Below are positions 18,048 to 38,203 of a stretch of DNA of 55,720 bases, one piece after another (the stretch's first letter is position 1; every line of letters starts with the position of its first letter). Under the pieces are notes generated by a model. That model was not told where the DNA came from. It was given only the letters and a program-made list of their open reading frames with translations, and made no database searches. Source of the stretch: Candidatus Eremiobacter antarcticus (lineage in GTDB: Bacteria; Vulcanimicrobiota; Vulcanimicrobiia; Eremiobacterales; Eremiobacteraceae); the NCBI GenBank assembly GCA_003244105.1, contig QHBK01000007.1, positions 1-55,720 on the forward strand, in the 5' to 3' direction. A program made the position numbers and the translations under genes.

Positions 18048-20831
18048 ATGCCGCGCGCGATGAAAGTCAAAGACGGGCTGGCCAAGCCCACGTCGATGCC
18101 AACGGGCACCGTGACATTTCTTTTCACCGACATCGAGGGCAGCACCCAGCGTTGGGAAGCGCACAGAGCCGAAATGGAGCAGGCGGTCGCGCACCACGAT
18201 AAGCTCCTGCGCACGGCGATGACCAAGCACAACGGCTTTGTGTTCAAAACCGTCGGCGACGCATTTTGCGTCGCCTTCAACCATCCGCAGGACGCAGTGG
18301 CGGCTGCAATTGGCGTGCAACGCGCCCTACAATCGAAAGATTTTAGTTCTGTCGATGGTTTGCGCGCGCGCATGGCGATCCATACCGGCACGGCACACGA
18401 GCGAGATGCGGACTACTTCGGGCCGACGGTCAATCGCGTCGCGCGCCTGCTTGCGATCGGTCACGGCGGCCAAGTACTCGTTTCAGGCACCGCTACCGAT
18501 TTGTTGCAAGGATCTTTGCCTGAACACACGAGCCTGCGCGACCTTGGGCAGCATCAGTTGCGCGATCTCGCCTTCCCAGAACAAGTCTATCAACTGGTCA
18601 ATCCGGAGTTTGCCGAGATTTTTCCGCCGCTGCGCTCGCTGGACGCGCTGCCCAACAATCTTCCGCGTCAGGCGACGGCCTTCATCGGCCGGGAAGAGGA
18701 ATTGGCCGACATCAAGACACTGCTGGACAAGTCTCAAATTGTGACGCTTCTAGGTACTGGAGGCGTCGGAAAGACTAGAACGGCGCTGCAAGTGGGAGCC
18801 GATCTGCTCGACGGCTCCGGCGACGGAGTCTGGTTTGTCGATCTAGCGCAGGTCACCACGGCGGATTACGTAGTTGCAGCGGTCGCTTCGATCTTCAAAA
18901 TTCAGGCGCAACCAAATCGAGAATTGCTTGACGATCTGTGCGCCCATTTGAAGAATAAACGCTTGTTGCTTATCCTGGATAACTGCGAGCACGTGGTGGC
19001 AGCGGCCGCGCGCGTTGTTACGGCGATCGTCAAAGACTGCCCGCGGGTTGCGGTGCTGGCTACCAGCCGCGAAGGTCTCAACGTCCACGGCGAGCAGGTG
19101 TACCGGATGCCATCCTTGTCCGTGCCTGCTCCAACAAGTGCGTTGTCCGCTACGGAGGCGATCACGCATGGAGCGATTGCGCTGTTCGTCGCTCGCGCCT
19201 CGGCGCTCGACGCGCAATTCAGCTTCACCGATGACAAAGCGCCGATCGTCGCAGATATCTGCAGGCGATTGGATGGCATCGCGCTCGCGATCGAACTGGC
19301 CGCCGCCCGCGTGACGATTCTCAATCTCAAACAGCTGTCGCAACGCCTGGACGAACGATTCCGCCTGCTGACCGGGGGCGATCGCACGGCGCTGCCGCGG
19401 CAGCAGACGATGCGAGCCGCCATCGACTGGAGCTACGAGCTGCTGTCGGACGACGAACGGACAATCTTCCGCCGGCTTTCCATCTTCCAAGGTGGTTGGA
19501 CGCTCGAGGCGTTGGGCGACATCTGCTCCGACGATGTGTTGGATGAATTCGCGATATTTGACATCCTCTCGTCGCTTGTCAACAAATCGCTCGTCACCGT
19601 TGAGTTCGACGCGGAGAAGCAACGCTACCGATTGCTGGAATCTTTGCGACAGTACGGCCTCGAGCGCTTGCGCAAGCAAGGTGAATTTGGCGCGGTAGCG
19701 CGTCGCCATGCGCGATACTACGCAGAGTACTCGCAGCAAGCGGCCGACAAATGGCAAGTGATCCCCGACGTTGCGTGGATCGACTTCATCGAAGACGAAC
19801 TCGAGAACCTGCGCGTCGCTTTGCAATGGTGCTTAGATCAGGGGAATGATCCGCATCTTGGCGCCCAAATCGCTGAACATCTGTGGGCCTATTGGTTTGG
19901 GCGCTCTGTGCAAGAAGGCCGCCGCTGGCTTCAGCTGGCTCGCGCAAGCGTCACACCGGAGGGCGATCCTGCGTTGAGCGTGGCTATTGATCTAGCGCTA
20001 TCGCGTGTGCTGATAAACATCTCATGGTCGGCAACGCAAGCCGCATGTGAACGGGCGCTGGCCGGCGCACGCGCACTCGACGAGCCGCGCCTACTCGCTC
20101 GAGCCCTTTACTATACCGGCGAGGCACACGTTTTTGCAAACCGGCTCGAGGAGGCAGAGGCACCGCTCGTCGAGGCCCGAGATCTGGCGCGGCAGCTGGG
20201 AGACCACTATCGCGAAGCCGCGGCAATGCAAATGCTGGGCAGACTGTATGCGCAACAAAAGCGGTTCGTCGCTGCCCGCGAACACATGGCCGCCTCCATG
20301 CGCTTCTATGAGAAGCGTGGAGCCGATCGCAACCGCGCGATAGCATTGATGAATTTAGCCGGGTTAGAACGGGCGGCCGGCGAGGCTCCACGCGCCATCG
20401 TGCTCGGTCGTGAAGCAGTCGAAATGGCTCGGACCCTGCGCGACGGTACGCTCGAGACGATCGCGTTGTCGTCGATAGCCGTGTGCCTTCTCTTAGCAGG
20501 GCGTTACGAGGAAGCAAGGACGAGTGCTCGCGCCGCGATCGAGTTTATCCGCAATAGCCGAATCGGCTCCGAGTTTTACCCAGCTTTACAGTCGTGCGTT
20601 GCCTTTGCCACCCGCGATCAAAAGTTTGAAACGGCGGCCCGGATTTTCGGATACGCTCAGCAAGCCAGCTCTGACCGATTGCCGGAAAATGCATTCCTTG
20701 GCCTCGATGCTGCCTGGCTGCTTCAGCCGCTGCGTGAAAAGCTCGCTGAGGAACGACTTCAATCTTTAATGGCGGAAGGCGCAGCCTGGTCGGAAGAACA
20801 GGGGCTAGAGGAAGCGTTTTTAGTTTGTTAG
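18048..20831 (+). CDS. Class III nucleotide cyclase - STAND ATPase - TPR protein
   Basis: 927 residues. Residues ~20-185: class III cyclase with metal Asp in FLFTDIEGST and VGDAFC, the Lys of FKTVGD and the DYFGPTVNRVARL segment that supplies Asn and Arg, so it looks active. Residues ~215-480: STAND/NB-ARC-like ATPase with P-loop GTGGVGKTR (~238), Walker B LLLILDNCEH (~306) and LATSREGLNVHGEQVYRMPSL. The rest (~560-927) is helical repeats (TPR). The build resembles mycobacterial Rv0386/Rv1358-type proteins, but I see no C-terminal LuxR helix-turn-helix. Predicted cytoplasmic signalling protein; ligand unknown. It is the one intact family member here without a neighbouring lipoprotein partner. 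Confidence 0.88.
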   Translation: MPRAMKVKDGLAKPTSMPTGTVTFLFTDIEGSTQRWEAHRAEMEQAVAHHDKLLRTAMTKHNGFVFKTVGDAFCVAFNHPQDAVAAAIGVQRALQSKDFSSVDGLRARMAIHTGTAHERDADYFGPTVNRVARLLAIGHGGQVLVSGTATDLLQGSLPEHTSLRDLGQHQLRDLAFPEQVYQLVNPEFAEIFPPLRSLDALPNNLPRQATAFIGREEELADIKTLLDKSQIVTLLGTGGVGKTRTALQVGADLLDGSGDGVWFVDLAQVTTADYVVAAVASIFKIQAQPNRELLDDLCAHLKNKRLLLILDNCEHVVAAAARVVTAIVKDCPRVAVLATSREGLNVHGEQVYRMPSLSVPAPTSALSATEAITHGAIALFVARASALDAQFSFTDDKAPIVADICRRLDGIALAIELAAARVTILNLKQLSQRLDERFRLLTGGDRTALPRQQTMRAAIDWSYELLSDDERTIFRRLSIFQGGWTLEALGDICSDDVLDEFAIFDILSSLVNKSLVTVEFDAEKQRYRLLESLRQYGLERLRKQGEFGAVARRHARYYAEYSQQAADKWQVIPDVAWIDFIEDELENLRVALQWCLDQGNDPHLGAQIAEHLWAYWFGRSVQEGRRWLQLARASVTPEGDPALSVAIDLALSRVLINISWSATQAACERALAGARALDEPRLLARALYYTGEAHVFANRLEEAEAPLVEARDLARQLGDHYREAAAMQMLGRLYAQQKRFVAAREHMAASMRFYEKRGADRNRAIALMNLAGLERAAGEAPRAIVLGREAVEMARTLRDGTLETIALSSIAVCLLLAGRYEEARTSARAAIEFIRNSRIGSEFYPALQSCVAFATRDQKFETAARIFGYAQQASSDRLPENAFLGLDAAWLLQPLREKLAEERLQSLMAEGAAWSEEQGLEEAFLVC

Positions 20832-29388: not shown

Positions 29389-30864
29389 TTACTGGATCTT
29401 GCCGCTCACCGCAAAGCCGGCCGGCGCATTGACCGGCGGTCGCAATGCGAACGGCACAGCCGCGCTGCTCGCGCTCGCCGCGCTTCCCACGGTGATTTGC
29501 GTCTGCGCGACCGGACTGCCGTTGTAGCTCGCCGTGATGGTGCACGTGCCGGCGGAGGCGCCGCTCAACAGCGTGAACTCGGCATTGGGGCCCGTCGGAT
29601 TGTCGTTATAACCTGACGGAGCGTCCCCATCGTTGTCGTTTTGATTGATGTCGGCGGCCGAACACGGTGCTGTCACCGCGATGCTATAGGCCGCGGTCAG
29701 CAACCCGGAAAAGTCCCCAACCAGAACGTGGAACTGCGTGTTGGTGGGAACGGAGGTCAACACGTTGGTGCTGCCGGGAAGGCCGCAGGGCTGGTGCACA
29801 TCCTTTGGCACGCACGCCGTGACGGCAATGGTGCCGAAATCCCACGCCTTATGCGCCTCGACCGCAAGGCCCGACGAGGAAACCACCGTAAACGCAGCTC
29901 GCTTGTGCGACAGCGTCGCGGGGAATGGGCCCAACACAATCGGGGTCGCATCAGGAACGAAGGTTCCCGGGCCGCCACGCGCCTTTGACTTCTTGCGCGT
30001 GCCCTTATTGGAGAAATCGCTCGTGACGGTGACGCTGGTCAGCGTGACCGGTCCTGTCCCCGACACGACAACCGACTCCGATGGCTTGTTGCCGTGAGTC
30101 AACTGCTGCACGCCCGCCGGCGATCCGCTGATCGTCTGCCATTGCAAGAACCCGGAGCCTCTGGCTTGGTATTTCACGTCAGCGCCAAGCGGGCCGACAT
30201 CCGCAAGCGACTGCTGAGTGTTGGATTGCACCGGGAACAGAACGCTCGCCGCAGCTTCTGGATACGCGTCGCTGATGTCGCGCGAAAAGATGAACGTGTA
30301 TTGCACTCCGCCGACAAATTTGAGCGTCGCGCCCGCCGGCGGCCTGAAAGTCAGGACGCTGCCGTTCAGCATCGCCAGACCGAGCGGACGCGGATTGGTC
30401 AACGCGTCCGGCGCCTTCGTCGGATCGAAGAACGTGACATCGAACGTTCCCGGACCGCACGCAGCTTGCGCGAGATCGATCACACACGTCGGCTCGGAGA
30501 TCGTGATGGTGACCGGAACTTCGAAGGTGATGAGCAGCGGAAACGGATCACCGGTGGTCGCAGGCGCACCAGCCGTCAAGCCGGCTTCGGCGATGTTAAG
30601 CGTCAGCTTCGCGCCCGCCGGCGCACCGTTCGCTCCCAGTGTCGTCGTGCCGTCATACCCTCGCGGAAACGGCAACTCGTAGCTCGCAGCCGACGGCGAG
30701 AGGCCGTACACCGCCGTCAGCCCCGACGGACCGGGCCCGAGACCGGTGTTTTGGCCGGCCGGCTGATCCTTGGGTGCAACACCGGCGGAACCGCCGCCGC
30801 ATCCGCTGAGGGCGAGCACTGACAGCGCGACGGCCAAGAAGGCTCGTGGATTGGAAACACCCAT
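29389..30864 (-). CDS. Secreted lipoprotein, module copy 1
   Basis: 491 residues from ATG 30864 with AGGAG 8 nt upstream. Lipobox in LAVALSVLALSGCGGGS. Paralogous along its whole length to the gene at 33811: shared blocks are GLSPSAASYELPFPRGYDG, DPFPLLITF, FDVTFFDPTKAPDALTNP, YTFIFSRDI, GFLQWQTISGSP, TFVPDATPIVLGPFPATL, SGLLTAAYSIAVTAPC, NDNDGDAPSGYNDN and the C-terminal RPPVNAPAGFAVSGKIQ. All-beta in character, several Ig-like domains likely, cell-surface or periplasmic. Divergent from the cyclase-STAND gene at 30983 with 118 bp between starts. I do not recognise a named family. Confidence 0.8.
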   Translation of the reverse strand: MGVSNPRAFLAVALSVLALSGCGGGSAGVAPKDQPAGQNTGLGPGPSGLTAVYGLSPSAASYELPFPRGYDGTTTLGANGAPAGAKLTLNIAEAGLTAGAPATTGDPFPLLITFEVPVTITISEPTCVIDLAQAACGPGTFDVTFFDPTKAPDALTNPRPLGLAMLNGSVLTFRPPAGATLKFVGGVQYTFIFSRDISDAYPEAAASVLFPVQSNTQQSLADVGPLGADVKYQARGSGFLQWQTISGSPAGVQQLTHGNKPSESVVVSGTGPVTLTSVTVTSDFSNKGTRKKSKARGGPGTFVPDATPIVLGPFPATLSHKRAAFTVVSSSGLAVEAHKAWDFGTIAVTACVPKDVHQPCGLPGSTNVLTSVPTNTQFHVLVGDFSGLLTAAYSIAVTAPCSAADINQNDNDGDAPSGYNDNPTGPNAEFTLLSGASAGTCTITASYNGSPVAQTQITVGSAASASSAAVPFALRPPVNAPAGFAVSGKIQ

Positions 30865-30982
30865 CACCGCAACTCCTGCGCCAACCGCTGAAATAACCTT
30901 GAGGCTTACGAGCAGCAAAGCCCTAAACCCCCTCCAGCAAGCGTCCGCGTTCCCAGCGCATGCCGGACTGTCCACCGCGACA

Positions 30983-33808
30983 ATGGAACAGAAAAGCATG
31001 GAGTCTCCCGGAGTCTCCGCTGGGTCCGTCGGATCGATCGCAATGCCCGAGAGCGAGCAAACGCTTCCCTCAGGCATTCTCACCTTTTTATTCACCGACA
31101 TCGAAGGCAGCACGGTGCGCTGGGACCGCGACCCGCGCGCCATGCAAGCGGTGGTGCGCCGCCACGACGACATCATGCGGTCGGCGATCGCCTCGCATCA
31201 CGGCCGCGTCTTCAAGACGGTCGGCGACGCCTTTTGCTCGGTCTTTCCACGAATCAATGATGCGCTCGACGCTGCCGTGCAAGCGCAGCGCGCGTTGGCC
31301 AATGAGGATTTCTCACAGGTCGACGGAGTGCGGGCGCGCATGGCGATCCACGTCGGCGCCGCGGACGAACGCGACGGTGACTACTTCGGCCGCACGCCGA
31401 ACCGCGTCGCGCGGCTGCTGTCCGTGGGCCACGGCGGACAGGTGCTGCTCTCAGGCGTGGCCGCCGAAGTAGCGGCGGACGCCGCGCCGCAGACAGAACT
31501 GCGAGATCTCGGAGAGCACCGCCTCAAGGATCTCACGGTGCCCGAGCACATCTTCCAACTGCTGGCACCCGATCTTGAAACCGAATTCCCGACGCTCAAA
31601 TCGCTGAGCGTGCTCGACAACAATCTGCCGGTCCAACTGACGAGCTTGATCGGCCGCGAGCAGGAGCTCGCCGATATCAGAGCCTTGCTGGACAGATCTC
31701 GCCTGGTCACGTTATGCGGAGCCGGCGGCGTCGGTAAGACTCGCTGCGCGCTGCAAGCCGGCGCTGAGGTTCTCGACGCTTTCAAAGAGGGTGTCTGGTT
31801 CGTCGATCTCGCGCCGTTGAGCGACGGGACCTTGGTGGTCAACGCCATCGCCTCAGTCTTCGACGTGCGGGAGCCGCCGAACCAGCGGCTGTTGGACGAA
31901 GTGCTCTCGTACCTCAAGAAGAAGCAGTTGCTGCTGATCCTCGACAACTGCGAACATCTCGTGGCAGAGGTCTCCAAGACGGCGGATTCGATCTTGCGCG
32001 CCTGCCCGACCGTGCGTATCCTCGCGACCAGCCGCGAGAGCTTGAGCATCGACGGCGAAGCGGTTTATCGCATGCCCTCGCTCGCAGTGCCCGAACGAGT
32101 CAAGGGTCTGAGCGCCGCCGACGCGCTCTCGTACGGCGCCGTCGCGCTTTTCGAGGCTCGCGGCCGATCTGCCAACCCGAAGTTCAAGCTTGATAATTCC
32201 AATGCGGCGACCGTTGCAGATGTCTGCCGCCGGCTCGACGGCATTCCGCTCGCCATCGAGCTTGCGACTGCGCGCCTCAACGTCCTAAGCCCGAGCCAGC
32301 TGGCGCAGAAGTTGGACGAGCGGTTCCGCTTGCTCACCGGCGGCAACCGCGCCGCGCTGCCGCGCCAGCATACGATGCGCGCGCTCATCGACTGGAGCTA
32401 CGATCACCTCTCGGCGCAGGAGCAACGCCTGTTCCGGTATTTCTCGATTTTTTCCGGCAGCTTCACGCTCGACATGGCCACCGCCGTCTGCGCCGACGAC
32501 CACATCGCCGGGTTCGAAGTGCTCGATCTGCTCACGTCGCTCGTCGACAAGTCGCTCGTGCAGCCGGAGCATTCCAGCGACGAGAGCCGCTACCGCTTGC
32601 AGGAGTCAACGCGGCAATACGCGCGCGAGCGGCTCGTGGAGTGCGCTGAGATGGAGCGCATCGCACGGCGTCACGCGGATGCGTATGTGAGGCTCGCAGA
32701 GCAGCTCGACAACTCGTGGGATTCGAAACCCGACAGCCAGTGGGTTTGCCAAGCCGAGCCGGATATGGATAACTGGCGCGCGGCGCTGACGTGGGCCTTC
32801 TCAGCGCACGGCGACCCTTTGATCGCGCAGCGGCTGGCGAGCGCAAAGATCTGGCTGGAGCTTGCTCCCGGTGAGGGACGAAGATACCTGCTCACCGCTT
32901 TGACGTCAGCCGACGAGCGGACTCCGCCCGAACTGATAGCGCAACTCGAGCTGGCCGCGTCAAAGATCGACACGGTCTTCGGACAGTTCAAAGCAGCACT
33001 CGCATCGGCGGAACGCGCCCGCGCGATCTTCGAAACTCTCGGCGATGAGCTCTGCTTGGCCAACGCGCGCTTGTGCGCCGGCCGGGCTCTCCTCTTTCTC
33101 AAGCACGTGCAGGAAGGCGAGGTGATGCTGCAAGCGGCGCTGGATGTGTTCCGTCGCAGCGGCAGCAAGAAGACCATGGGATCTGCCTTATCCGCCCTCG
33201 GCGCGGCACGGATCATTCAAGGAGACGTGCCCGAAGCGCGTTCGTTTCTGACGGCGGCCGGCACCCTATACAAGCGATCAGGAGCCGATGGGCGTGTGCC
33301 CGCAGTGTTGAGCATGCTGGCCGAAGCGGAGTTTCGCGCCGGCGACGCGGGGACGGCCCTAGAGGTGGCGAGCCAGGCTCTCACCGCTCATCGGGGCGTC
33401 AAGAGCGGACCCAACGTCGTGAACATCCTGTACAACATGGCCGCCTACTTCACGGTCTTGGGCCGCTATGATGAAGCGCGGGCGCACGCGCGCGAGGCGC
33501 TCGAACTGGCGCGCGACGAACAGGCCGATGCGGAGGTCACGATAGCCTTGCAGCATCTCGCTGCAGTCGCAGCGTTGGGCGCGCCGGGCGATCAAGAAGC
33601 TCAAGAGCGCGCGGCGCGTTTGCTGGGATTCGCCGATGCGAGTTTCGATGCGCTCGATTACACCCGCGAATACACGGAACAGCAAGAATACGAGAGAGTA
33701 CGGACCGCATTGCACCATGCGCTCGGCGACGCGCGGCTCGCCGAACTCGCCCAAGAAGGGCAATCGTGGACCGAGGAGCGCGCCGTCAGCGAGGCGCTGG
33801 AAATCTAG
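30983..33808 (+). CDS. Class III nucleotide cyclase - STAND ATPase - TPR protein, module copy 1
   Basis: 941 residues from ATG 30983; ATG 31043 is an alternative that gives the same N-terminal length as its paralogs. Cyclase: LTFLFTDIEGSTVRWD, FKTVGDAFCSVF and DYFGRTPNRVARLL keep both metal Asp, the Lys and the Asn/Arg. ATPase: CGAGGVGKTRCALQ (about residue 246), LLLILDNCEHLV, LATSRESLSIDGEAVYRMPSL, then PRQHTMRALIDWSYDHLSAQEQRLFRYFSIF of the winged-helix-like arm. C-terminal TPR array ends SWTEERAVSEALEI. No transmembrane or helix-turn-helix output domain is seen. Its stop is 2 bp from the stop of the next lipoprotein gene. Probably senses an intracellular cue and makes cAMP or cGMP; inference. 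Confidence 0.88.
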   Translation: MEQKSMESPGVSAGSVGSIAMPESEQTLPSGILTFLFTDIEGSTVRWDRDPRAMQAVVRRHDDIMRSAIASHHGRVFKTVGDAFCSVFPRINDALDAAVQAQRALANEDFSQVDGVRARMAIHVGAADERDGDYFGRTPNRVARLLSVGHGGQVLLSGVAAEVAADAAPQTELRDLGEHRLKDLTVPEHIFQLLAPDLETEFPTLKSLSVLDNNLPVQLTSLIGREQELADIRALLDRSRLVTLCGAGGVGKTRCALQAGAEVLDAFKEGVWFVDLAPLSDGTLVVNAIASVFDVREPPNQRLLDEVLSYLKKKQLLLILDNCEHLVAEVSKTADSILRACPTVRILATSRESLSIDGEAVYRMPSLAVPERVKGLSAADALSYGAVALFEARGRSANPKFKLDNSNAATVADVCRRLDGIPLAIELATARLNVLSPSQLAQKLDERFRLLTGGNRAALPRQHTMRALIDWSYDHLSAQEQRLFRYFSIFSGSFTLDMATAVCADDHIAGFEVLDLLTSLVDKSLVQPEHSSDESRYRLQESTRQYARERLVECAEMERIARRHADAYVRLAEQLDNSWDSKPDSQWVCQAEPDMDNWRAALTWAFSAHGDPLIAQRLASAKIWLELAPGEGRRYLLTALTSADERTPPELIAQLELAASKIDTVFGQFKAALASAERARAIFETLGDELCLANARLCAGRALLFLKHVQEGEVMLQAALDVFRRSGSKKTMGSALSALGAARIIQGDVPEARSFLTAAGTLYKRSGADGRVPAVLSMLAEAEFRAGDAGTALEVASQALTAHRGVKSGPNVVNILYNMAAYFTVLGRYDEARAHAREALELARDEQADAEVTIALQHLAAVAALGAPGDQEAQERAARLLGFADASFDALDYTREYTEQQEYERVRTALHHALGDARLAELAQEGQSWTEERAVSEALEI

Positions 33809-33810
33809 CC

Positions 33811-35280
33811 CTACTGGATCTTGCCGCTGACCGCAAAGCCGGCCGGGGCGTTCACCGGAGGCCGAAGCGTGAACGGCACCGCCGAGGTGCTTGCGCCCGG
33901 CGCGTTGACCACCATGCTCGTCTGCGCCACCTGAACGCCGTTATATGTCGCCGTGATCGTGCACGTGCCAGGCGACGCGCCGCTTGAGACGTCGAACTCG
34001 GCGTTAGGTCCGCTTGTGTTGTCGTTGTAGCCGGACGGAACGTCACCGTTGTTGTCGTTCTCGTTGATGCCGGCGATCGTGCACGGAGCCGTGACGACCA
34101 AGCTGTATGGTTGCGTGAGCAGCCCGGACGAGTCTGACACGAGCACGTTGAAATGCTGGTGCGTCAAAACTGAAGTCTTGAGATTGGTCGTCGTGCCGTC
34201 GTTGCAAACGCTTAGGTTGTGCAAAGGCGCGCACGCGGTAACGGTGACAAGGCTGAAATCCCACGCCTGGTTGCCGCCCAGCGCAAGGCCCGGCGGAACC
34301 GTGAAGCTCGTCTTATTGCCGTAGACGGTCGCCGGGAATGGACCGAATATGGTGGGGTTGGCATCCGGCACAAACGTTCCAGGCTTGGGAGAAAGCAACG
34401 TTCCCGAGGTCGCTTGGCTCCCGGAACCGTTGGCGAAGACGCCCGTGATGGTCGTGTTGGTAAGCGTAAGCGCTTGGCTAGCGGAGACGACGATCGACTC
34501 GATCGGCTGATCGCCGAAGATGATCTGTGGCACCAGCGGGGGCGAACCGCTGATCGTCTGCCACTCCAAGAAACCCGTGTTGACCGACGCTTGGTAGTTC
34601 GCGAGCGCGCCGAGCGGCCCGACGCTTGCGAGCGTTTGCGTGACGCCCGATTGGACCGGCAAGATGACGCTATTCGTGCCCGCGTTGTCGATGTTGCGCG
34701 CGATGATGAACGTGTAGCGCACTCCGGCCAGGAGCGTGACGCTCGCGTTCGGTTGCGCCGTAAACGTCAAGGTGTGGCCGCTGACCACTGCCTGACCTAA
34801 CAGAGATGGGTTGGTCTGCGCGTTCGCCGGCTTCGTCGGATCGTAGAACAAGAGGTCGAACGTTCCCGCCATGTTCACGTTATGCGGAAACGTGATCGAG
34901 AATCCGGGCACCGGCAACGTAATCGTGAACGGCAACGCGATGCCGATGAAGATCGGGAACGGGTCGGCGCTTGTCGTCGACAGCGCGGCAGCGCCGCCGG
35001 CCAAGCCGTTGCCCGAAAGATCCAGCCGCATCTGAGCGCCTTGAGGGGCGCGGCTCGCGCCAAGGGACATCGAACCGCTGTAGCCTTGCGGGAGCGGCAG
35101 CGAATAGCGACCCCCCGAAGGCGAAAGGGAATAGACTGCGCTTAACCCGCCACTTGGGGCGTTCGGCTGCGCGTGCGCGCGTGTGACGGCGTCGGGAGAG
35201 ACCCCGCCTCCGCTGCAGGCGGCGAGCGAAACGGCGAAAAGCGCGGCGGCCATGACGGCCCGTGCCTGGAAGACCTTCAT
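33811..35280 (-). CDS. Secreted lipoprotein, module copy 2
   Basis: 489 residues from ATG 35280, AGGAG 8 nt upstream. Lipobox LFAVSLAACSGGG. Colinear paralog of the gene at 29389, with the same block order: YSLSPSGGRYSLPLPQGYSG, DPFPIFIGIALPFTITL, FDLLFYDPTKPANAQTNP, GFLEWQTISGSP, TFVPDANPTIFGPFPATV, SGLLTQPYSLVVTAPC, NDNNGDVPSGYNDN, ending RPPVNAPAGFAVSGKIQ. The last 17 residues are identical in the two proteins while the middle has diverged, so that tail is under strong constraint or has been converted. Divergent from the cyclase gene at 35408 with 127 bp between the starts. Confidence 0.8.
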   Translation of the reverse strand: MKVFQARAVMAAALFAVSLAACSGGGVSPDAVTRAHAQPNAPSGGLSAVYSLSPSGGRYSLPLPQGYSGSMSLGASRAPQGAQMRLDLSGNGLAGGAAALSTTSADPFPIFIGIALPFTITLPVPGFSITFPHNVNMAGTFDLLFYDPTKPANAQTNPSLLGQAVVSGHTLTFTAQPNASVTLLAGVRYTFIIARNIDNAGTNSVILPVQSGVTQTLASVGPLGALANYQASVNTGFLEWQTISGSPPLVPQIIFGDQPIESIVVSASQALTLTNTTITGVFANGSGSQATSGTLLSPKPGTFVPDANPTIFGPFPATVYGNKTSFTVPPGLALGGNQAWDFSLVTVTACAPLHNLSVCNDGTTTNLKTSVLTHQHFNVLVSDSSGLLTQPYSLVVTAPCTIAGINENDNNGDVPSGYNDNTSGPNAEFDVSSGASPGTCTITATYNGVQVAQTSMVVNAPGASTSAVPFTLRPPVNAPAGFAVSGKIQ

Positions 35281-35407
35281 CAAGTAGCTCCTGTGCGGTG
35301 CTGCAAACGTTGCTGGACGGCGCCTAGCTTTGCCTCAGGCTCGGAAAAGGCCTTGAGACTTCATTTCCGGGGCCGGACTGCGCTTCCAGGAAATCGAAGA
35401 ACGGCGC

Positions 35408-38203
35408 ATGGGAGCGGTCCAGGCATCTTCGGGCTCAACTGTGCGCGCAAGCGGCCAACCGTCCGGCGATGTTTCGTTCCTCTTCACCGACATCGAAGGC
35501 AGCACCGTGCGCTGGGACCGTGACGCAGCTGCCATGCAGCAGGCGGTGCGACGGCACGACCACATCATGCGTTCCGTCATCGCCGCTCATCACGGCCACG
35601 TCTTCAAGACGATAGGCGATGCGTTTTGCGCCGTCTTTTGGCATGCTGCGGATGGGTTGCACGCAGCGCTGGAAGCGCAGCGCGCACTGGCGATCGAGGA
35701 CTTCTCTTCCGTCGAAGGCGTGCGCGTCCGGATGGCGCTGCACGTGGGCGCGTCTGATGAACGAGACGGAGATTATTTCGGTCCGACGCTGAACCGTGTG
35801 GCGCGGCTGCTGGCGATCGGGCACGGCGGTCAGGTGCTCCTTTCCGCGGCCGCAGCCGCCAAGGCGTCAGATGCCTTGCCCGGCACGACGCTGCGCGATC
35901 TGGGCGAGCACCGCCTCAAAGACCTCAGCTCACCGGAGCACGTCTTCCAACTCGTCGCTCCCGACCTCACCGCGGAGTTCCCAAAGCTGCGGTCGCTGAG
36001 CATCCTCGACAACAATCTGCCCATTCAGTTGTCAAGCCTGGTCGGCCGCGAGCAAGACGTCGCGGAGATCAAAGCGCTGGTCGAGCATTCTCGGCTGGTC
36101 ACGCTCTGCGGAGCAGGCGGCATCGGCAAGACTCGCTGCGCCATGCAAGTCGGCGCCGATCTGCTCGACGGTTACAGCGACGGCGTCTGGTTCGTCGATC
36201 TCGCGTCGCTCGGCAATGCGTCGCTTGTGCCCAACGTCGTCGCTGCGGTCTTCGACGTGCAAGAACCGTCGAACCAGCAAATGCTCGACGCGCTGATCGC
36301 ATTTTTCAAGAACAAAGAACTGCTTGTGATCCTCGACAACTGCGAGCACGTGATCGCCGACGTCTCGAAGACCGCAGACGCTCTCCTCAAAGCGTGTCCA
36401 AAGCTGCGGATACTCGCGACCAGCCGCGAGAGCTTGGCGATCGGCGGCGAGAGCGTCTACCGCATGCCGTCGCTCGCCGTGCCTGCCGACTCCCATGGTC
36501 TCACGGCGGCAGCGGCGCTTGCATACGGCGCAATCGCGTTGTTCGACGTGCGCGCGCGCGCGGCGAACGCGCGCTTCCAGCTTAGTGACGACAACGCGCC
36601 CGTGATCGCCGAGATCTGCCGCCGTCTGGACGGCATAGCGCTCGCCATCGAGCTTGCCGCAGCACGCATCAAGGTGCTGTCGCCCAGGCAGCTGTCTGAA
36701 AAGCTCGACGAGCGTTTTCGGCTTCTGACCGGCGGCAACCGCGCCGCACTGCCGCGCCAGCAGACGATGCGGGCGCTGATCGACTGGAGCTACGACTTGC
36801 TTTCGGAATCGGAACAACGCCTTTTCCGGTACTTTTCGATTTTCGCCGGCGCCTTTACGCTGGAGCTTGCAACCGCAGTTTGCGCCGACGACTCTATCGC
36901 CGACTTCGAGATGCTCGACCTGCTCTCGTCGCTCGTGGACAAGTCGCTGCTCCATCCGGAATATGCAGCCGATGAGACGCGCTACCGGCTGTTGGAGTCA
37001 ACGCGCCAGTATGCGCGCGAGAAACTGCTCGAACGGGGCGAATACGAGAGCATCGTGCGGCGCCACGCAGATGTTTATGTCGCGTTTGCCGACAAGCTCG
37101 ACGACTCGTGGGACTCCACGCCTGACCGTGAATGGATCTGCAAAGCAGAACCGGAGATGGACAACTGGCGGGCAGCCATCGCGTGGGCCGTCTCCGCCAA
37201 CGGCGACACGCGCGTCGTGCAGGAGCTCGCGCTCGCGAAGGTATGGCAAGAACTGGCGCATGCCGAGGGCCGGCGGTACGTGCGGATGGCGCTCGACGCG
37301 GTCGCCGCCGATACGCCGCCCTTGTTGGTCGCCGAACTCGAGCTGTCAGCGTCCAAAATCGACTCGATTTTCGGACAGTTCAAGAGCGCGCTTGCTTCGG
37401 CCGAACGGGCGCTCGCGATCTTCCAACAATTGCCCGACCCGGAATTGTGTGTCGCCAACGCTCAATTGTGCGCCGGCCGCGCGCTGCTCTTCCTCTCTCG
37501 CATCGAAGAGGGCGAAGCATTGCTGCAGGCTGCGCTGGATGTCTTTCGCAAGACGCACAGCCAGAAGACCATGGGGTCCGCGTTGTCCGCGCTCGGTGCG
37601 GCTCGCATCATGCAGGACGACATCCCGGAAGCACGTTCGCTTTTGATGGCGGCGGGCGCGATTTACAAGTCGACAGGAGCCGATGGGCGCCTTCCCGCTG
37701 TTTTGAGCTTGCTGGCGGAGGCAGAATTCCGCGCCGGTGATGTCGAGGCTGCGCTGCGCGTGGCCGGGGAAGCATTGGAAGCGCATCGCGCTATTAAAAG
37801 CGGCCCAAACGTTCTCAACGTCTTGTACAACATGGCTGCCTATCTGACCGCGCTTGCGCGCTTTGAAGAGGCGCGCAGCCACGCCCATCAGGCTCTCAAG
37901 CTGGCGCGCGAAGAGCAGGCTGAGGCAGACGTGGCCTTCACGTTGCAGCATTTGGCCGCGATCGATGCGCTGAAGCCCGACAATGGTGCAGACGGCCGAA
38001 TGCGGGCGGCGCGTTTGATAGGCTTCGTCGATGCGCGACTCGCGTCGCTCGACTCCGCGCGCGAGTACACGGAGCAAGTCGAGTACGACCGCGTGCAAGC
38101 CGCGTTGCGAGATACGCTCCAGCCGGATCAGCTCGATACGTTGATCGACGAAGGACGGCATTGGAACGAGGAGCGAGCCGTCAGCGAAGCCATGGCGATC
38201 TGA
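35408..38203 (+). CDS. Class III nucleotide cyclase - STAND ATPase - TPR protein, module copy 2
   Basis: 931 residues. Domain order as in its paralog at 30983: cyclase (VSFLFTDIEGSTVRWD, FKTIGDAFCAVF, DYFGPTLNRVARLL), STAND ATPase with P-loop CGAGGIGKTRCAMQ (about residue 235) and LLVILDNCEHVI, then PRQQTMRALIDWSYDLLSESEQRLFRYFSIF and TPR repeats ending HWNEERAVSEAMAI. It is closer to the 30983 protein than to the 18048 one, judged by shared stretches such as the YRYVRMA/RRYL and LCAGRALLFL blocks. Catalytic and ATP-binding residues are intact. The gene pairs divergently with the lipoprotein gene at 33811. Confidence 0.88.
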   Translation: MGAVQASSGSTVRASGQPSGDVSFLFTDIEGSTVRWDRDAAAMQQAVRRHDHIMRSVIAAHHGHVFKTIGDAFCAVFWHAADGLHAALEAQRALAIEDFSSVEGVRVRMALHVGASDERDGDYFGPTLNRVARLLAIGHGGQVLLSAAAAAKASDALPGTTLRDLGEHRLKDLSSPEHVFQLVAPDLTAEFPKLRSLSILDNNLPIQLSSLVGREQDVAEIKALVEHSRLVTLCGAGGIGKTRCAMQVGADLLDGYSDGVWFVDLASLGNASLVPNVVAAVFDVQEPSNQQMLDALIAFFKNKELLVILDNCEHVIADVSKTADALLKACPKLRILATSRESLAIGGESVYRMPSLAVPADSHGLTAAAALAYGAIALFDVRARAANARFQLSDDNAPVIAEICRRLDGIALAIELAAARIKVLSPRQLSEKLDERFRLLTGGNRAALPRQQTMRALIDWSYDLLSESEQRLFRYFSIFAGAFTLELATAVCADDSIADFEMLDLLSSLVDKSLLHPEYAADETRYRLLESTRQYAREKLLERGEYESIVRRHADVYVAFADKLDDSWDSTPDREWICKAEPEMDNWRAAIAWAVSANGDTRVVQELALAKVWQELAHAEGRRYVRMALDAVAADTPPLLVAELELSASKIDSIFGQFKSALASAERALAIFQQLPDPELCVANAQLCAGRALLFLSRIEEGEALLQAALDVFRKTHSQKTMGSALSALGAARIMQDDIPEARSLLMAAGAIYKSTGADGRLPAVLSLLAEAEFRAGDVEAALRVAGEALEAHRAIKSGPNVLNVLYNMAAYLTALARFEEARSHAHQALKLAREEQAEADVAFTLQHLAAIDALKPDNGADGRMRAARLIGFVDARLASLDSAREYTEQVEYDRVQAALRDTLQPDQLDTLIDEGRHWNEERAVSEAMAI

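Follow-up and report, generated by a model that had tools for sequence, protein, structure and literature searches.

Organization of the locus

The window analyzed here is a stretch of 55,720 nucleotides (contig QHBK01000007.1) from the 2.64-Mb genome of Candidatus Eremiobacter antarcticus (G000 in what follows), a member of the Eremiobacterota (Vulcanimicrobiota). Positions 29389–38203 hold two tandem units, in each of which a minus-strand lipoprotein gene stands head to head with a plus-strand class III cyclase-STAND-TPR gene. In the first unit, lipoprotein A (29389..30864, minus strand) is an exported protein of 491 residues, counted from the ATG that precedes the signal peptide, with the lipobox LSGC; its mechanical open reading frame extends to 31176. 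The divergent intergenic region A (30865..30982) contains GCCGGACTG upstream of the start of cyclase-STAND-TPR A (30983..33808, plus strand). The latter has 941 residues (ATG 30983) or 936 residues (ATG 30998), within a frame that opens at 30770, and its catalytic and Walker A/B residues are intact. Lipoprotein B (33811..35280, minus strand; 489 residues, lipobox LAAC) is separated from cyclase-STAND-TPR B (35408..38203, plus strand) by the intergenic region B (35281..35407), with GGCCGGACTG upstream of the ATG. Along the 931 residues of cyclase-STAND-TPR B, the cyclase occupies about 18–185, the NTPase and winged helix about 206–560, and the TPRs about 641–860. Where the two units join, the genes of cyclase A and lipoprotein B run tail to tail into each other, their stops (33808 and 33811) separated by 2 bp. 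In both cyclase proteins, the cyclase (Guanylate_cyc), NTPase, and TPR stretches score above the Pfam cut-offs; domains and gene coordinates together confirm the two units and the 2-bp gap described in a first-pass annotation of the window.

The same annotation took the two lipoproteins, like the two cyclase proteins, for colinear paralogs, and this holds: the lipoproteins share 52% of their residues over the full length (67% for the DNA over the gene) and the cyclase proteins 67% (72% for the DNA). The lipoproteins were also said to end in the same 17 residues; they do share a C-terminal tail, of 18 residues (LRPPVNAPAGFAVSGKIQ). Since the DNA encoding this tail differs between the copies at synonymous sites, it is not a fresh DNA copy. 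The tail was considered as a genome-wide sorting signal and rejected, as it is found in these two genes only and nowhere else in the genome. A string of 10 residues, HRLFVNPPVK, that resembles the LRPPVN tail of the window lipoproteins is present in two lipoproteins of another genome, G001 (L173, G001:C10:2645-2673; L174, G001:C51:1708-1736); both adjoin cyclase-STAND genes and nearly all codons of the string differ.

A third cyclase-STAND-TPR gene lies at 18048-20831, preceded on its strand by a Na/H exchanger gene. Its product is 46% identical and no lipoprotein of the family adjoins it.

Conservation of the pairing

A lipoprotein profile, grown stepwise, was searched against 149 genomes of the phylum, 117 of them of the class. 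Nine full-length homologues are found among these genomes. They occupy eight loci, and the seven carrier genomes all belong to one class: two homologues are in G000, two in tandem in G014, and one each in G001, G113, G075, G054, and G059. The family is cleanly set apart by score, as no member falls below 248 bits and no other hit exceeds 62 bits, with the next hit covering the N-terminal part only. All nine full-length lipoproteins (9/9) adjoin a STAND-TPR gene, which lies divergently on the opposite strand across a short intergenic region, so that the neighbor that the first-pass annotation had proposed to look for beside homologues is present every time. In G014:C1 (L142:8936-11963), the two tandem lipoproteins, 38% identical, share one divergent cyclase-STAND-TPR gene.

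None of the 51 related STAND-TPR genes outside the clade with a readable upstream gene carries a lipoprotein of the family. The linkage is thus 8/8 in the clade versus 0/51 outside (Fisher p ~5e-10, a value that overstates the independent events, the loci being related by descent). The genes flanking the pair show no match between the seven genomes, and the linkage has therefore been kept through changing surroundings. A lipobox neighbor of any kind is no commoner upstream of STAND genes than in the background (3/51 versus 5/98).

The trees of the lipoproteins and of the STAND proteins, the comparison of which had also been proposed, agree where resolved, and their groups match taxonomic groups where resolved. 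In a careful tree of the cores only, built without the fragmentary G001 protein, the linked STAND-TPR cores and one G098 protein form a single clade (support 99/98). The G098 gene is itself cut off by the end of its contig, which breaks where the cyclase domain begins, and the rest of that assembly yields no member of the lipoprotein family; this protein is not among the scored loci. A profile search with the clade's own core finds no unsampled close member. All these statements concern eight loci in one bacterial class.

Beyond the paired clade, cyclase-STAND-TPR genes occur in 82 of the 117 genomes of the class, and a single genome has as many as 53 candidate places; the expansion is large and uncharacterized. 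Other, unrelated lipoproteins (phosphoesterase-like or NHL-like) are found divergent to STAND-TPR genes (L086 in G032:C1; L149 in G009:C13).

Duplication of the unit

Between the two copies in the window, the lipoproteins differ by a dS of 1.04 and the cyclase proteins by one of 1.21; with dS about equal, both pairs split at about the same time. The near-equal values fit a single duplication of the whole unit, as the first reading of the locus had it, and on sequence grounds the lipoprotein and cyclase pair was probably duplicated once. The values of dN are 0.39 for the lipoproteins versus 0.235 for the cyclase proteins. A higher dN is seen in many surface proteins.

The window copies group as sisters in the lipoprotein tree as well as in the STAND tree, and next to them comes the G001 homologue, with starred support in each (the G001 STAND protein entering as a fragment of 345 residues). 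The duplication therefore postdates the split from the genus of G001 and took both genes.

The lipoprotein

A lipobox is present in 9/9 lipoproteins, with its Cys at residue 19–24 preceded by Ala or Gly. Beyond that Cys, cysteines occur in even numbers in all nine mature proteins and two pairs of them are invariant, the pattern expected in an oxidizing compartment. The wall of Vulcanimicrobium alpinum is gram-negative, its outer membrane covered with LPS (PMC9758169), and for this reason an outer-membrane lipoprotein is possible in that species. The C-terminal region of most members has an Asp/Asn-rich stretch, for example NDNNGDVPSGYND, the likeness of which to calcium loops is a resemblance only.

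By its sequence, the lipoprotein matches no known family. There is no Pfam match over the cut-off (one lies below, E 0.045), no match of note in NCBIfam or PADLOC, and no significant sequence match in the PDB. Structural modeling had been put forward as a way to find the fold. The full-length AlphaFold model (pLDDT 43) is too poor for use and a fold search with it returns nothing significant. Modeled alone, the N-terminal domain is all beta (pLDDT 78, pTM 0.79), and at least this part of the protein is predicted to be a beta sandwich. It has no significant fold match in the PDB; no hit has an E better than 0.056, and we place no weight on the weak CBM32/lectin-like ones.

The N-terminal part (about residues 10–217) recurs in other lipoproteins of the class (L032, L031, L143). 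The N-terminal-only matches that were checked have no STAND gene nearby, except one in G001:C51.

The STAND-TPR partner and its output domain

Within the clade, the N-terminal domain of the partner changes. It is a class III cyclase in G000, G001, G113, G075, and G014; the G059 partner is a TIR-STAND-TPR protein (Pfam TIR_2, 1e-21) and the G054 partner a 2TM-GAF-STAND-TPR protein, with two hydrophobic segments and GAF_2 (1e-6). Because of this change, the constant partner of the lipoprotein is the STAND-TPR core and not the cyclase. The partnership between lipoprotein and cyclase proposed at first thus stands as a conserved pair with the STAND-TPR protein, the cyclase itself being absent from G059 and G054. 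Likewise, cAMP from the cyclase as the essential link to the lipoprotein fails for these two genomes. Most partners have no clear membrane segment; only that of G054 has two, at its N-terminus.

In the cyclase members, D28, K67, D71, D122, N129, and R133 are intact (6/6), with D28 and D71 the metal-binding aspartates, N129 and R133 the transition-state residues, and K67 and D122 the adenine-selecting pair; these proteins are predicted to use ATP. The Walker A (GxGGxGKT) and Walker B (LxxDNCEH) motifs occur in all readable cyclase members, and the G054 and G059 proteins have NB-ARC or nSTAND matches in Pfam. A C-terminal TPR sensor (Pfam TPR_12) is present in all members scanned.

In the wider STAND-TPR family, outside the clade with the lipoprotein, exchange of the N-terminal domain is common too, and XRE-type HTH, TIR, and alpha/beta hydrolase kinds are seen (L146-L156, L162; assigned by eye).

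Comparison with known systems

The order of the core (NTPase, winged helix, TPR sensor) is that of the STAND proteins with a TPR sensor such as MalT, PH0952, and AfsR, and the core has sequence matches to the AfsR structures 8k60 and 8jke as well as to Pfam NB-ARC, AAA_22, and TPR_12. Unlike those proteins, the clade has an exchangeable output at the N-terminus and a fixed, exported lipoprotein partner, and no DNA-binding domain is found in it with Pfam. In mycobacterial-type proteins of the Rv0386/Rv1358 kind, an N-terminal class III cyclase precedes a STAND-type ATPase. The window proteins have these two parts as well; they differ in that they show no C-terminal LuxR-type HTH, with a TPR sensor instead, and in the lipoprotein partner.

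STAND cores with exchangeable effectors, cNMP cyclase and TIR among them, are an already known theme, described in antiviral and conflict systems of multicellular bacteria (PMC7159879; PMC10907252). In contrast to those systems, no vWA-MoxR, EAD, or protease partners are seen here, the partner being the lipoprotein. No PADLOC STAND model (Avs or other) matched, and the hits are weak and at the level of domains only (PycC, TPR, SAVED_TIR, mad8). The match of the cyclase domain to PycC of Pycsar is weak (E 6e-5). The window cyclase differs from Pycsar in being fused to STAND-TPR and in having the canonical adenine-selecting Lys and Asp; no Pycsar effector is found adjoining it, the neighbors being the lipoprotein, PhyH, and GNAT genes.

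A weak similarity of the core extends to the STAND-TPR proteins of the FxSxx-COOH/HaaT RiPP systems (NCBIfam NF041717, NF040586), with scores far below the cut-offs (at best 75 bits vs. 1125 for HaaT and 43 vs. 300 for FxSxx_TPR). Unlike in those systems, the partner in the window is a lipoprotein of 490 residues and not a short precursor peptide, and there is no conserved radical SAM neighbor. The radical SAM gene that adjoins the G001 lipoprotein is not conserved elsewhere, which led us to reject a RiPP system.

In a literature text search, with most subscription papers outside its scope, we found no account of a lipoprotein paired with such a STAND protein, nor of this lipoprotein family in Eremiobacterota.

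A possible two-gene module at the envelope

The reading that we favor, tentatively, is that lipoprotein and STAND-TPR protein form one two-gene module, with an envelope lipoprotein and a cytoplasmic NLR-like switch of exchangeable output. The conserved divergent pairing, the co-inheritance, the joint duplication, the intact catalytic residues, the export signals, and the replacement of the output domain all point this way, and we infer a direct physical or functional interaction between the two proteins. STAND proteins with a TPR sensor, such as MalT and PH0952, are autoinhibited monomers at rest that multimerize on binding an inducer (PMC6468293). A switch mechanism of this sort is likely by analogy, an ATP-driven assembly that activates the N-terminal domain, because the paired clade keeps the MalT/PH0952 layout. 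The lipoprotein would be exported and lipidated, and disulfides would probably hold it together in the envelope. In the cytoplasm, the ATP-driven STAND core and the TPR sensor would keep the N-terminal output silent until triggered, whereupon the protein would multimerize and switch it on. Six of the eight units would respond with cAMP synthesis, the G059 unit with TIR chemistry, and the G054 unit through a membrane-tethered GAF region. The best candidate on the input side is the lipoprotein, since it stays while the output changes. The TPR sensor would read the state of its own lipoprotein, its ligand, or its export, and an envelope event would so become an intracellular signal; the actual input could be the precursor before its export, a ligand that the lipoprotein brings in, or a signal that comes from the envelope indirectly. 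Several points count against such a module: the lipoprotein is outside the cytoplasm, with most partners devoid of a clear membrane segment; divergent pairing is also typical of a regulator and its target gene; the clade member of G098, on its broken contig, comes from an assembly in which no such lipoprotein is found; and eight loci from one class are a small sample.

A regulator-target pair with a bidirectional promoter is the main rival, which we regard as possible if rather unlikely. As with MalT or AfsR, the STAND protein would control transcription of the divergent lipoprotein gene, acting by way of cAMP with a CRP-like factor or by another output, and the lipoprotein would be no more than what is regulated, such as a binding protein of the cell surface. 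The head-to-head genes do have a short intergenic region in common, the closest solved matches to the STAND core are those to AfsR, a transcription regulator, and related STAND proteins outside the clade have DNA-binding domains of the XRE type; the two cNMP-binding proteins of the G000 genome could be cAMP receptors. In four of the eight paired loci, a GSCGGACTG element lies about 27–30 nt upstream of the STAND start (30960-30980 and 35370-35400 in the window, and the upstream regions of L011 and L141). The other STAND genes inspected do not show the element at this position, and it may be part of a promoter. Against this reading, however, no intergenic motif is common to all eight loci, the paired clade lacks a detected DNA-binding domain, and the cyclase, TIR, and GAF outputs have no obvious messenger in common that would act on one promoter.

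The pair could also guard the envelope in the manner of an NLR, which we consider doubtful. The lipoprotein would then be a surface guardee or bait, touched for example by phage, predator, or toxin, and the STAND-TPR protein would detect its loss, damage, or failed export and fire an interchangeable effector (cAMP, TIR, or membrane).

That the link between the two genes is one of inheritance only, with the genes kept or moved as a cassette and no action on each other, seems to us improbable. The patchy distribution (7/117 genomes of the class) and the differing flanks fit a mobile cassette, but searches of phage, plasmid, and viral collections returned nothing at the sensitivity applied, the tree groups follow taxonomy where resolved, and the association survives the replacement of the output domain. 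Finally, the local chance that a lipoprotein gene happened to adjoin a cyclase-STAND gene before both were duplicated, though STAND-TPR genes are abundant enough in the class for chance neighbors now and then, is refuted by the 149-genome survey, barring misassembly of most carriers, as the same divergent neighbor accompanies nine of nine homologues, across seven genomes whose flanking genes are unrelated (rough chance estimate < 1e-11 even at 50 STANDs per genome).

For the favored module of lipoprotein and STAND-TPR switch, the wider setting is a class with a strong expansion of STAND-TPR proteins, the outputs of which are cyclase, TIR, or HTH domains. The carrier genome G014 is very probably that of the cultured Vulcanimicrobium alpinum WC8-2, with the module at about 630.0–636.0 kb of the chromosome; with a cultured host that very probably carries the module, the link between lipoprotein and STAND protein is open to direct testing by gene deletion. 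The paired clade is the first that we came upon in this survey to have a fixed partner inherited along with it, and this partner provides a concrete candidate for the sensed input, and the swapping of the output domain with the lipoprotein kept shows with which half of the STAND-TPR protein the lipoprotein goes.
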